Source: Reyranella massiliensis 521 (GTDB lineage Bacteria > Pseudomonadota > Alphaproteobacteria > Reyranellales > Reyranellaceae). Taken from it: a stretch of 64,000 nt of DNA. Shown here one piece after another: positions 16,935 to 21,727 of this stretch. The position numbers and the translations under genes are program-made. The stretch spans positions 1 through 64,000 of the forward strand of contig CAMARK010000004.1 in the NCBI GenBank assembly GCA_945860205.1. The letters run 5' to 3'. How positions within the stretch are numbered: the first letter of the stretch is position 1; each line of letters starts with the position of its first letter. The notes beneath the pieces are model-generated. The model did no database searches. It saw nothing but the letters and a program-made list of their open reading frames with translations, and was not told the DNA's origin.

Positions 16935-17801
16935 ATGGACCTCCAACCTTCCAACCTCAAAGCCGCCGCCTGGATGGCCGGATGGCTATCGGCAATGCTG
17001 GTCATGGCGATCGCCGGCCGCGAGGCCACGCGCGAGCTCGATGTCTTCCAGATCATGGAGATGCGCTCGATCCTGGGCCTCTTCATGCTCTACCCGCTGA
17101 TCTACCTGGGCAGCGGTTTCGCAGGCCTCAAGACGGCGCGGCCCTGGCAGCACATCGCGCGCAACGTGGCGCACTACGGCGCGCAGTTCGCCTGGTTCCT
17201 GGCGCTCACCCTGATCCCGCTCGCCCAGGTCATCTCGATCGAGTTCACCATGCCGATCTGGACGGCGATCCTGGCCGTCGCCTTCCTGGGCGAACGCATG
17301 GGCCTCTGGAAGAACCTGGCGGTCGTGCTGGGCGTGGTCGGCGTCGTCATCATCGTGCGGCCGGGGACCAACGAGATCGTGCCCGGCCAGTTGATCGCGC
17401 TCGCCGCCGCCGTCGGCTTCGCCATCTCCGTCACCATGGTGAAGTCGCTGACGCGCACCGACAGCGTCGTGGCCATCCTGTTCTGGATGCTGGTGATTCA
17501 ATCAGTGATCGGACTGTTGCCCGCTATCGCCGTCTGGCAGTGGCCCTCCCCCTACGTCTGGGTCTGGATCCTCGTGATCGCCTTCCTCGGCACCTACTCA
17601 CACTATTGCCTGACCCGCGCGATGCTCCACGCCGACGCGACCATCGTCGTGCCGATGGATTTCCTGCGCGTGCCGCTGGCGGCGCTCACGGGATGGCTGA
17701 TCTATGGCGAGCGGCTCGATACCTTCACGATCCTGGGTGCCGCCCTGATCCTGTCGGGCAATCTCTTGAACCTGAAGGGCGCGGGAGCTCGCAAGCCATG
17801 A
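16935..17801 (+). CDS. EamA/DMT family transporter
   Basis: Ten-TM pattern with two EamA halves. Start chosen at MDLQPSNLKAAAW. Confidence 0.88.
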   Translation: MDLQPSNLKAAAWMAGWLSAMLVMAIAGREATRELDVFQIMEMRSILGLFMLYPLIYLGSGFAGLKTARPWQHIARNVAHYGAQFAWFLALTLIPLAQVISIEFTMPIWTAILAVAFLGERMGLWKNLAVVLGVVGVVIIVRPGTNEIVPGQLIALAAAVGFAISVTMVKSLTRTDSVVAILFWMLVIQSVIGLLPAIAVWQWPSPYVWVWILVIAFLGTYSHYCLTRAMLHADATIVVPMDFLRVPLAALTGWLIYGERLDTFTILGAALILSGNLLNLKGAGARKP

Positions 17802-18295
17802 CGGCCTCGTCCTGGATCGCGGCCTGGGCCGGCCTCGTGCCGGCGGGCGCCGGCGTCCTCGACATCGCCGCGGGCAAGGGCCGGCACACGCGCTTCTTCG
17901 CCGAGCGCGGCCACCCAATCACCGCGGTCGACCGCGATGTGAGCGGCCTGGCCACCACCGACAATATCGAAGTCATCGCAGCCGACCTCGAGGACGGTTC
18001 GCCCTGGCCGCTGGCCGGCCGCACGTTCGGCGCGGTGGTCGTGACCAACTACCTGCACCGGCCGCTTTTTCCCGTGCTGCTCGACAGCGTCGGGCCGGGC
18101 GGCGTGCTGCTCTATGAGACGTTCATGATCGGCAACGAACGCTTCGGAAAGCCGAGCCGGCCCGAATTCCTGCTGAACGACGGCGAACTGCTGGAGCTGG
18201 TGCGCGGCCGCTTCTCGGTGATCGCCTACGAGGCGCGGATGATCAGCGAACCCGCGATGGCGATGGTCCAGCGGATCGCGGCGCGTCTTCTGTGA
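17798..18295 (+). CDS. Class I SAM-dependent methyltransferase
   Basis: MTASSWIAAWAGLVPAGAGVLDIAAGKGRHTRFFAERGHPITAVDRD. ATGA overlap with the preceding gene. Confidence 0.85.
   Translation: MTASSWIAAWAGLVPAGAGVLDIAAGKGRHTRFFAERGHPITAVDRDVSGLATTDNIEVIAADLEDGSPWPLAGRTFGAVVVTNYLHRPLFPVLLDSVGPGGVLLYETFMIGNERFGKPSRPEFLLNDGELLELVRGRFSVIAYEARMISEPAMAMVQRIAARLL
18269..18288 (+). repeat. 20-bp direct repeat, left copy (3' end of the methyltransferase CDS)
   Basis: cagcggatcgcggcgcgtct, identical to 20775-20794. Confidence 0.9.
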
Positions 18296-18336
18296 AAATT
18301 GCAGTATTGGCGGTTCGATTCCGTCTCGGGGCACCA
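18292..18336 (+). pseudogene. tRNA-Phe(GAA)-like 3' half remnant (anticodon region to encoded CCA)
   Basis: GTGAAAATTGCAGTATTGGCGGTTCGATTCCGTCTCGGGGCACCA: GAA anticodon context, 5-bp T stem GGCGG/CCGTC with TTCGATT loop, 7-nt acceptor strand TCGGGGC, then ACCA. No 5' half upstream (that sequence is CDS). Confidence 0.72.
18320..18336 (+). repeat. 17-bp tRNA-3'-end direct repeat, left copy
   Basis: tccgtctcggggcacca, identical to 20747-20763. Confidence 0.9.
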
Positions 18337-18627
18337 ACCACTTTTATTCTGTCAAAGGCATCAGGCACTTAGCGCCTGGTGCGACACGCCTGACGAAATT
18401 GGAACCACACTCCCGCAGGCTTGGTAGCCAATTCGCGACTCCTTGAACGCGTTACTCGCGTCCAGCAAACCCAGCGAACGAGGTCCGCTTTCCACCCGAT
18501 AGCGGACATGCGGCAGTCTTCTCGGCATGTCCGCTTAGTGCCATATGCCGACATGGACGACCCATGCCGGCCGCGTCATTGCCCAGCCGGTTAACCCCTT
18601 CTACGATCCGGGGTATGGGGAATTCCT

Positions 18628-20427
18628 TTGGCACGTGAGCAGCGCCGACTAGCAGCAATCGTTGCAGTCGATGTAGTCGGCTATTCCCGCCTGATGGGCC
18701 GGGACGAGAGCGGCACGGTGGCGCGCCTGCGAGAGCATCGCCAGCAGCGCTTGGAGCCGGTACTGACCCGGCACGGTGGCCGCCTGGTCAAGCTGACCGG
18801 CGATGGTGCTTTGGTCGAGTTCCCCAGTGCGGTCGATGCGCTTGGCGCTGCCATCGAGTTCCAGCAGGCCATGGCCGAGGTCAATCGAGACCAGCCTGAG
18901 GACACCGCCATCGTGTTCCGGGCCGGGCTTCATCTCGGCGACCTGATCGTGGACGGCGATGATCTCTACGGCGACGGTGTGAACGTGGCAGCCCGGCTTG
19001 AGGCGGAAGCATCCGCGGGTGGCATCGTCGTCTCGCGCGCCATTCGTGAAGCGGTCGAGGGCCGACTCAAGGCCAAGCTTCACGCGCTGGGCGAACTCAC
19101 GCTCAAAAATATCGAGCGTCCGATCAGAGCCTTCCGGGTGGAGTGGGATGCAACTGACTGGCAGGCGGCGGTTGCGCTCCCACCTGAACCTATAGGGCAA
19201 GCGGCGATCGTTGCGCCGGCCCTCGCCCTGCCCGACAAGCCGTCGATTGCCGTCCTGCCATTTCAGAACATGAGCGGTGACCCAGAGCAGGAGTACTTCG
19301 CTGACGGCATGGTCGAGGACATCATCACCGCGCTGTCGCGGTTCAAGTCCCTGTTCGTCATCGCGCGCAATTCGAGCTTCACCTACAAAGGACGCGCCAT
19401 CGACATCAAGCAGGTCGGACGGGAGCTGGGCGTGCGCTACGTCCTGGAAGGCAGCGTGCGCAAGGCCGCGAACAAGATACGCATCACCGGCCAGCTCATC
19501 GATGGCGAGAGCGGTGCTCACTTGTGGGCGGATCGCTTTGATGGATCGCTGGAGGATATCTTCGAGCTCCAGGATCAAGTGACGACAAGCGTTGTCGGTG
19601 CGATCGCTCCCAAGATAACGCAGGCGGAGATGGAGCGTGCCAGGCGCAAGTCGGCCGGGAACCTCGACGCCTACGACTGTTTCCTGCGCGGCATCGCACA
19701 GGGCGACATCATGACACGCGAAGCCCAGGAAAATGCCCTTGAGTTCCACCGCCACGCCATTGAACTCGATAAGGACTTTCCCACGCCCCATGGGATGATC
19801 GCCCGCATCTATTCATTCCGCGTGCAGCAGGGTTGGAGCGTCGACAAGGAGTGGGAACAGGCGGAGATCAGGCGCTTGGCCAACCGCGTCGCGGAAATCG
19901 GCCACGACGACGCCGAGGCCCTGTGTTGGGCCGGCCACTCGATTGCGGTCGTCTGCCGGGAGCTCGAGAGCGGAGCGGTTCTCATCGATCGGGCACTGGC
20001 AATCAACCCGAACCTGGCGGTCGGTTGGCAAACCCGAGGGTGGGTCAGCGTGCTGCTTGGCGAGCATCAAATGGCGCTCAACCAGATCGCGCGAGCGCAA
20101 CGTCTGAACCCGATGGATCCGGAAAGTTACCTTTCGGACGGAGGCATGGGGGCCGCCAACCTTGGCCTGCGCAAATATGACGAAGCGGTAAAATGGCTGG
20201 GCAAGGCCCTTGCGCGTCAACCCAACTGGATGATCCCCAAGCGACAGTTAGTGGTCGCGAACGCGCATGCCGGCAACATCGAGGAGGCACGCAGGCTTTT
20301 GCAGGAATTAAGGATTGCAGACCCGCTGTTGCGCCTGTCGAATTTCAGAAGCTACACGCTTTGGCGCAAGCCCGCGGATATTGAAATGATGCTCGAAGGC
20401 CTGCGCCTTGCAGGATTACCTGACTAG
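18628..20427 (+). CDS. Adenylate/guanylate cyclase domain protein with TolB-like and TPR regions
   Basis: Class III cyclase motifs (RLAAIVAVDVVGYSRLMGRDESGT, LTGDGALVEF), TolB-like KPSIAVLPFQNMSGDPEQEYFADGMVEDIITALSR, C-terminal TPRs. TTG start. Confidence 0.9.
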   Translation: MAREQRRLAAIVAVDVVGYSRLMGRDESGTVARLREHRQQRLEPVLTRHGGRLVKLTGDGALVEFPSAVDALGAAIEFQQAMAEVNRDQPEDTAIVFRAGLHLGDLIVDGDDLYGDGVNVAARLEAEASAGGIVVSRAIREAVEGRLKAKLHALGELTLKNIERPIRAFRVEWDATDWQAAVALPPEPIGQAAIVAPALALPDKPSIAVLPFQNMSGDPEQEYFADGMVEDIITALSRFKSLFVIARNSSFTYKGRAIDIKQVGRELGVRYVLEGSVRKAANKIRITGQLIDGESGAHLWADRFDGSLEDIFELQDQVTTSVVGAIAPKITQAEMERARRKSAGNLDAYDCFLRGIAQGDIMTREAQENALEFHRHAIELDKDFPTPHGMIARIYSFRVQQGWSVDKEWEQAEIRRLANRVAEIGHDDAEALCWAGHSIAVVCRELESGAVLIDRALAINPNLAVGWQTRGWVSVLLGEHQMALNQIARAQRLNPMDPESYLSDGGMGAANLGLRKYDEAVKWLGKALARQPNWMIPKRQLVVANAHAGNIEEARRLLQELRIADPLLRLSNFRSYTLWRKPADIEMMLEGLRLAGLPD

Positions 20428-20746
20428 CACATACCGGTCATGCGAGATTCACTAATCGCTCAAGACACGCATGCTTTGTAGGTGTAGGCAATCAAGGCTG
20501 CAGACTGATCGATCTCCGCAATGTTCACGCTTGCAAGTGTGCGAGGCAGCCATGTCGGCTGTGGGTCATTCGCGTCGTCCGGAGGGGGCGTCGATCACTT
20601 CTGGTCTGGCCCCATTAGCGGACGTCCGAGGATGGCCTAAGTGGGTCTGAAGGTGCGACACCTTTCCGTGGCATGCCCCGGAATGTTGTGGGAAGTTTCT
20701 CTGTCGCACCTGCCAGTAAGTGCTTGATCTAGTTGGTTTGCCGCAG

Positions 20747-20763
20747 TCCGTCTCGGGGCACCA
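20747..20763 (+). repeat. 17-bp tRNA-3'-end direct repeat, right copy
   Basis: tccgtctcggggcacca, identical to 18320-18336. The bases just upstream do not match the left copy. Confidence 0.9.
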
Positions 20764-20774
20764 TGCTCTTTCGG

Positions 20775-20794
20775 CAGCGGATCGCGGCGCGTCT
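20775..20794 (+). repeat. 20-bp direct repeat, right copy
   Basis: cagcggatcgcggcgcgtct, identical to 18269-18288. Confidence 0.9.
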
Positions 20795-20795
20795 C

Positions 20796-20826
20796 TTGTC
20801 ATCCTGAGCGAAGCGAAGGATGACAA
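20796..20826. repeat. Palindromic hairpin element (ttgtcatcct...aggatgacaa)
   Basis: Perfect 10-bp stem 20796-20805/20817-20826, loop gagcgaagcga. Lies between the 20-bp repeat and the stop of the nitrilase-family gene. Confidence 0.8.
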
Positions 20827-20845: not shown

Positions 20846-21727
20846 TTACTCGGCAGCTTTCGCCATCGCCGCCTTGTGCAGCACAGGCGCCGCGTATTTT
20901 CGATCGTGCTGCAGCGACGGCACCATCTTGCGCGCTTCCTCGACCTTGGCGAGGTCGATATCGGCCACGACGAAGCCCGCGGTCTCGCCGCCGGCATCGG
21001 CCAGCACCTCGCCCCACGGGGCGATGGCGATCGAGTGGCCGTAGGTCTTGCGGTTGGAACCCTTGTGCGTGCCGACCTGGGCCGGTGCAAAGACGAAGCA
21101 GCCGGTTTCGATGGCGCGCGACCTCAGGATCGTATGCCAATGCGCCTTGCCCGTCGGCACGGTGAAGGACGACGGGATCGCCAGCATCGTGGCGCCGGCA
21201 TGCGCCAGCTCGCGATAGAGATAGGGGAAGCGCAGGTCGTAGCAGATGGTCATGCCCAGCACGCCCCACGGTGTCTCGGCCAGCACCGCGCGGTCACCCG
21301 GCTTGAAGGTCGCCGACTCGAAATAGTTCTCACCGCCGGCCAGGCGGACATCGAACATATGGATCTTGTCGTAGCTCGCCACGATGCCGCCCGAGGAATC
21401 GATCAAGTAGGAGCGGTTGCGGATCTGCTCCTCACCCTCGATACGGACATGGATGCCGCCCAGCAGGAACCAGGCGCCCGTCTCGCGCGCCGACGCGCGG
21501 CAGGCCGCCAGCATGCCGTGGCTCTCTTCCGTCTGCGCCTTCTCCAGCGTCTCGGTACGGTTGGCGCCGATCAGGCCGGTGTTTTCCGGCGTCATGATGA
21601 AGTCGGCGCCGGCGTCGCGGGCAAGCCGTGCCTGGTCCTGCACAAAGGCCACGTTATCGGCCATTTCGTTGCTGACGTTGGTCTGGATCAGACCGGCCCT
21701 GAAAGTCCCGGCTTTGAACACGGTCAT
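20846..21727 (-). CDS. Carbon-nitrogen hydrolase (Nit/omega-amidase-like)
   Basis: Glu-Lys-Cys triad contexts: FIMTPENTG, YDKIHMFDV, TICYDLRFPYLYRELAHAG. Confidence 0.92.
   Translation of the reverse strand: MTVFKAGTFRAGLIQTNVSNEMADNVAFVQDQARLARDAGADFIMTPENTGLIGANRTETLEKAQTEESHGMLAACRASARETGAWFLLGGIHVRIEGEEQIRNRSYLIDSSGGIVASYDKIHMFDVRLAGGENYFESATFKPGDRAVLAETPWGVLGMTICYDLRFPYLYRELAHAGATMLAIPSSFTVPTGKAHWHTILRSRAIETGCFVFAPAQVGTHKGSNRKTYGHSIAIAPWGEVLADAGGETAGFVVADIDLAKVEEARKMVPSLQHDRKYAAPVLHKAAMAKAAE

Follow-up and report, generated by a model that had tools for sequence, protein, structure and literature searches.

At the end of a methyltransferase gene of Reyranella massiliensis 521, a short stretch with one signalling gene and no recognisable integrase is enclosed by two nested pairs of direct repeats, which raises the question of what kind of unit this is and how it came to lie at the end of a protein-coding gene. 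The locus was analysed within a stretch of 64,000 nucleotides of this genome (hereafter referred to as the window, to which all coordinates refer) and was compared with 65 congener genomes; all the relatives named by number below are Reyranella.

The junction and its empty counterpart

The outer repeat, CAGCGGATCGCGGCGCGTCT, occurs exactly at 18269-18288 and 20775-20794, as reported in the first-pass annotation, and a search allowing up to 3 mismatches finds no other copy in the window. In shuffled sequence a mean of 0.12 matches was obtained and two matches were never reached, while local alignment of the left flank against the right flank returned this 20-bp repeat with a result equalled in 0 of 2000 shuffles; the outer pair lies far beyond chance. 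The frames described there, QRIAARLL* on the left and QRIAARLLSS* on the right, were likewise confirmed. The inner repeat, TCCGTCTCGGGGCACCA, is exact at 18320-18336 and 20747-20763. Searched as a bare pattern with up to 3 mismatches, it reaches two matches in 6 of 100 shuffles and is modestly unusual, both copies being exact; the origin of this pair from tRNA-Thr(CGT), discussed below, explains it in spite of these modest statistics. Two features had been missed on first reading, namely a 27-nt imperfect inverted repeat (18360-18386 and 20702-20728) directly internal to the inner repeats, and conserved ends, of which the left one extends to about 18543 and the right one runs from about 20554. 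The absence of an integrase between the repeats held on homology search, and no transposase-like reading frame was seen there in the list of open reading frames, Pfam having been applied to the main one. The features of the locus are as follows.

17798 to 18295, plus strand: methyltransferase gene with interrupted 3' end, now ending QRIAARLL* (in-frame ORF; congener orthologues, 68-86% identical, adjoin the nitrilase gene)
18269 to 18288, plus strand: outer 20-bp repeat, left copy, the methyltransferase gene end (exact repeat, local alignment)
18293 to 18308, plus strand: 16-nt stretch resembling tRNA-Phe in register from anticodon loop to T stem (the genome's own tRNA-Phe on contig C109 is 81% identical over 47 bp; common to G018)
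18309 to 18336, plus strand: attL-type site, last 28 bp of tRNA-Thr(CGT), with the 17-bp core at 18320-18336 (identity to intact congener tRNA-Thr(CGT))
18337 to 18386, plus strand: P' arm, which contains 18360-18386 of the imperfect inverted repeat (arm comparison and alignment)
18387 to 18543, plus strand: remaining conserved left end, with perfect hairpin arms AGCGGACATGC and GCATGTCCGCT at 18501-18535 (blastn and alignment with G047, G044, G074 and G050)
18628 to 20427, plus strand: cargo gene for a protein of 599 aa that combines a class III cyclase-like domain with TPR repeats (Pfam PF00211 and TPR; G047 and G046 have homologues flanked by similar ends)
20554 to 20697, plus strand: conserved right-end part before the P arm (comparison with congener ends)
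20698 to 20746, plus strand: P arm, which contains 20702-20728 of the imperfect inverted repeat (alignment of 13 right ends; model R1)
20747 to 20763, plus strand: attR-type core, last 17 bp of tRNA-Thr(CGT) (exact repeat, 13-sequence alignment)
20764 to 20774, plus strand: TGCTCTTTCGG, perhaps the beginning of a further P' arm that is truncated (left-arm profile match, weak, E about 0.008)
20775 to 20794, plus strand: outer 20-bp repeat, right copy, displaced native gene end reading QRIAARLLSS* (exact repeat; native end in G047)
20846 to 21727, minus strand: nitrilase-type gene, native right-hand neighbour (92% identical in G021; convergent with the methyltransferase gene in most congeners)

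The methyltransferase and nitrilase genes are convergent neighbours separated by less than about 140 bp in most congeners that have both on one contig, the gap being about 80 bp in the near relative G021. Since the junction is empty in most congeners, the unit has been inserted in Reyranella massiliensis 521, as had been proposed, and on comparison of the orthologous junctions it is a 2.4 kb insertion with one signalling gene at the methyltransferase gene end. The right copy of the outer repeat had been taken for a leftover of the ancestral gene end; the methyltransferase gene of G047 ends CAGCGGATCGCGGCGCGCTTGTCATCCTGA, the same as that copy, which is therefore the displaced native end.

The junction between these convergent genes is an insertion hot spot in its own right. 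Other inserts of about 0.7-3.5 kb occupy it in several congeners (various inserts at L224, L225, L226, L227 and L228 in G044, G054, G047, G062 and G052, respectively), and the arm profiles of the element family described below gave no match in those examined. A REP-like palindrome, TGTCATCCTGAGCGAAGCGAAGGATGAC, lies at 20796-20821, immediately 3' of the right outer repeat, and has many near-identical copies genome-wide.

Attachment-type ends and the family integrase

The inner repeats had been described as tRNA-derived, and their source could be identified as the 3' end of tRNA-Thr(CGT), a gene found intact in many congeners, to which 18309-18336 is identical over 28 bp. The right copy comprises only the last 17 bp, preceded by the conserved P arm. 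Integration of an element at a tRNA 3' end leaves an asymmetry between attL and attR; on this alignment, the 28 bp on the left against 17 bp on the right is that asymmetry and the inner repeats are the attachment cores. The sequence thus presents an attL-type left end (tRNA 3' end and P' arm) and an attR-type right end (P arm and core) at a location which is a methyltransferase gene end and not a tRNA gene.

Similar ends are widespread in the genus. Thirteen right ends align well, the P arm being conserved in all 13, and a sequence-only model built from them matches 36 places in 25 of the 65 genomes at E<=0.01, of which about 12 are strong and the weakest uncertain. The first-pass annotation had regarded repeats at loci without the cyclase gene as an argument against insertion; the inner repeats do recur at many loci, which fits mobility and does not refute it. 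In G020 an element of about 9.2 kb with both arms as its flanks lies beside an intact tRNA-Thr. P arm, core and P' arm adjoin without a gap in G046:C245, G074:C221 and contig C116 of Reyranella massiliensis 521 itself, which is the order of a tandem array, and such junctions are compatible with mobilisation by accretion with a related element. No P arm, or core with P' arm, was found in the viral contigs searched.

Several further observations concern these sites. On C116 (L026:4219-4967) a second unit of about 0.75 kb has both ends and is followed directly by another P' arm, in tandem. Contig C120 (L027:3161-3243) carries a family right end with the host tRNA-Phe 3' end as the core instead of tRNA-Thr. 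On contig C6 (L028:3280-3370), the 3' end of an apparent hydrolase gene contains an ectopic tRNA-Thr 3' end with a short P'-like piece; a diverged gene with a similar C-terminus comes next, as though the body of the native gene had been exchanged. In the window, the tRNA-Phe-like stretch at 18293-18308 and the adjoining tRNA-Thr piece together form a chimeric tRNA 3' half. Right ends of other types (L270, L271, L273, L275, L277 and L278), in which identity to tRNA-Thr(CGT) begins at about TTCGATT, within the T loop or close to it, suggest that several unrelated integrases use this gene. A loss of tRNA-Thr(CGT) from Reyranella massiliensis 521, suspected as no intact copy was found, was discarded when its 5' part was located at a contig edge (G000:C89:1-41); an assembly break inside the gene is expected if its 3' half is repeated.

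The integrase of the family was found through the genes that adjoin the P' arm; a list of all the tyrosine recombinases of the genus did not point to a partner. A 384-aa phage-type tyrosine integrase in G022 ends beside the left (P') arm that the window unit also has, where tRNA-Thr(CGT) is intact, and its neighbourhood includes a RecT gene, which suggests a prophage-like relative. The integrase of G063, 49% identical to that of G022, is also at tRNA-Thr(CGT), and two right-end sites lie beyond it. In G020 the P' arm is adjoined by no more than a C-terminal, frameshifted remnant of an integrase, and G058 is similar. No integrase remnant or homology was found in the window unit, and no member of the G022/G063 integrase family in the Reyranella massiliensis 521 genome at E<=1e-15, in a fragmented assembly, broken among other places inside tRNA-Thr(CGT), from which a copy could be missed; contig C116 holds a possible integrase trace of 23 residues (E 0.06). 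A search of the literature on Reyranella integrases returned nothing relevant. Of the earlier suggestion that the unit was mobilised in trans via a tRNA-type site, the tRNA-type site and the integrase-less unit stand, joined now by a cognate integrase family in relatives, and the movement in trans itself is the inferred part: mobility of the unit, present or past, probably depends on an integrase encoded elsewhere.

Cargo, site reuse and the outer duplication

The cyclase/TPR gene is the only substantial gene inside the unit. Homologues in two other species lie between family ends, in G047 (55% identity; right end truncated at the core) and in G046 (47% identity; left-end DNA similarity confined to the P' arm), while G044 and G074 have the same left end followed by sequence without a cyclase match. 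Units without an integrase that differ in locus, species and cargo have about 220 bp of the left end in common. The cyclase region (18537-20559) recurs at 93% DNA identity on a short contig of another Reyranella MAG (L114:740-2763) with no recognisable arms, and hence cargo and ends can separate.

The left junction, including the bases from the gene end to the core, is the same in G018, of which only this junction is assembled. The left end in G018 is 61% identical to that of the window, whereas the left end in G047, at an unrelated locus, is 88% identical; the methyltransferase genes of the two genomes are similarly distant from that of the window (88% and 86%, respectively). With gene distances alike and the G018 end far less similar than an unlinked one, the ectopic att site is taken to be older than its present occupant, which is the simplest reading of one assembled G018 end, and it has apparently been reused, G018 holding a different element.

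The outer repeat duplicates the gene end by 20 bp. A comparable outer duplication was not established at the other ectopic sites tested, most of which have one assembled end, and these sites give no evidence for the 20-bp repeat as a signature of the element. A target duplication of about 20 bp as a general rule was considered on the basis of a candidate at C6 (2 of 300 shuffles) and dropped, as G021 shows the left copy at C6 to be native coding sequence; a SINE-like insertion of a tRNA fragment, conceived from tRNA-plus-trailer pieces at C4 and C6, was left unsupported once C6 had been explained. Of the insertion with target duplication proposed in the first-pass annotation, the insertion therefore stands, but G018, with the same left junction and another element, suggests that the duplication did not arise together with the present occupant. 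Uptake of a piece of an island while a staggered break was being repaired would agree with the incomplete tRNA on the left and, on the right, with TGCTCTTTCGG as what may be the beginning of a second P' arm.

Competing explanations and known systems

Taken together, the sequence comparisons make it probable that the unit belongs to a family of integrative elements of Reyranella directed to tRNA-Thr(CGT), of which it is a small, integrase-less and CIME-like representative residing at an ectopic att site. Part of a tRNA-Thr island array would have been captured into the gene end with the 20-bp duplication, and the resulting ectopic att site would date to the common ancestor with G018. The phage-type tyrosine integrase of the family, provided in trans or by a co-resident element, would act on the core and the arms, and could in this way remove or swap units at the ectopic site.

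An ordinary decayed remnant, that is, an autonomous tRNA-Thr-type element which had its integrase deleted after entering a secondary site and has since become fixed, without any mobile integrase-less lineage, appears unlikely. The integrases decaying beside the P' arm in G020 and G058, perhaps the C116 trace, and the lack of any sign of present mobility would agree with it; the window unit, however, retains no trace of an integrase, its left end of about 220 bp is shared by integrase-less units of differing locus, species and cargo, and the occupant of the junction site differs between Reyranella massiliensis 521 and G018. Both att-type ends in correct order and orientation, homologous to elements at tRNA-Thr, argue against simple gene capture at the hot spot by homologous or illegitimate recombination with a tRNA piece brought along by chance, which is improbable even though the other junction inserts examined lack family arms and the REP-like palindrome adjoins the right repeat. 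Least credible of all is a nested arrangement, in which the 20-bp gene-end sequence served as the core of an outer element that carried an inner tRNA-type unit: the new stop at the left gene end and the native end shifted to the right recall gene-end integrators, but the outer and inner repeats are spaced by only 31 and 11 bp, leaving no room for outer arms or genes.

The locus clearly exemplifies an island without an integrase at an ectopic site, for which the empty junctions of congeners serve as a control; relatives have a likely partner integrase, and stages of integrase decay can be seen. Provided that units of this kind are moved in trans, small islands of a single gene would be recognisable by their arms and core, not by an integrase, and the reuse of a displaced att site would be directly testable. 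A bolder and rather doubtful extension of the tRNA-Thr(CGT) family reading is that Reyranella harbours a lineage of non-autonomous single-gene cassettes with conserved ends of their own, spreading between species into ectopic tRNA-fragment sites at the ends of protein genes, sites that different cassettes would reuse; such a lineage would constitute a cassette system that relies on a phage-type integrase directed to tRNA.

The 17-bp core and conserved P and P' arms, by which the tRNA-Thr(CGT) family is defined here, are all present in the window unit; the phage-type tyrosine integrase beside the P' arm is present in G022 and G063 and absent from it. Its ends are att-like, unlike the terminal repeats of a transposon family, and the list of open reading frames shows no transposase-like frame between the repeats. 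CIMEs are cis-mobilizable elements derived from ICEs or IMEs (PMC5704250). Like them, the unit retains attL and attR, homologous to the ends of elements at tRNA-Thr(CGT), has a single cyclase/TPR gene with no integration or transfer genes and no integrase homology, and belongs with related elements that form tandem arrays. Unlike them, it lies at a protein-gene end, measures 2.4 kb and carries one cargo gene; integrase-bearing relatives exist, among them G022 with its RecT neighbourhood, and an ICE or IME parent is a candidate only.

Integron gene cassettes are also single-gene units with recombination sites and a tyrosine recombinase encoded elsewhere, whereas the arms of the window unit flank a tRNA-derived core and are split over both its ends, as in phage attP. 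The tycheposons of Prochlorococcus share the tRNA association, the tyrosine recombinase and the variable cargo, but measure 4-200 kb and are described at tRNA genes, whereas the window unit is integrase-less, 2.4 kb long and at a gene end (PMC10872708). The closest described parallel is found in the ssrA-specific islands of Dehalococcoides without an integration module (PMC3146451), which are tandem units bounded by a repeat of about 20 bp from the 3' end of an RNA gene, many of them lacking an integrase; they use a serine recombinase and all lie near ssrA, whereas the Reyranella family has a tyrosine integrase and dispersed ectopic sites.
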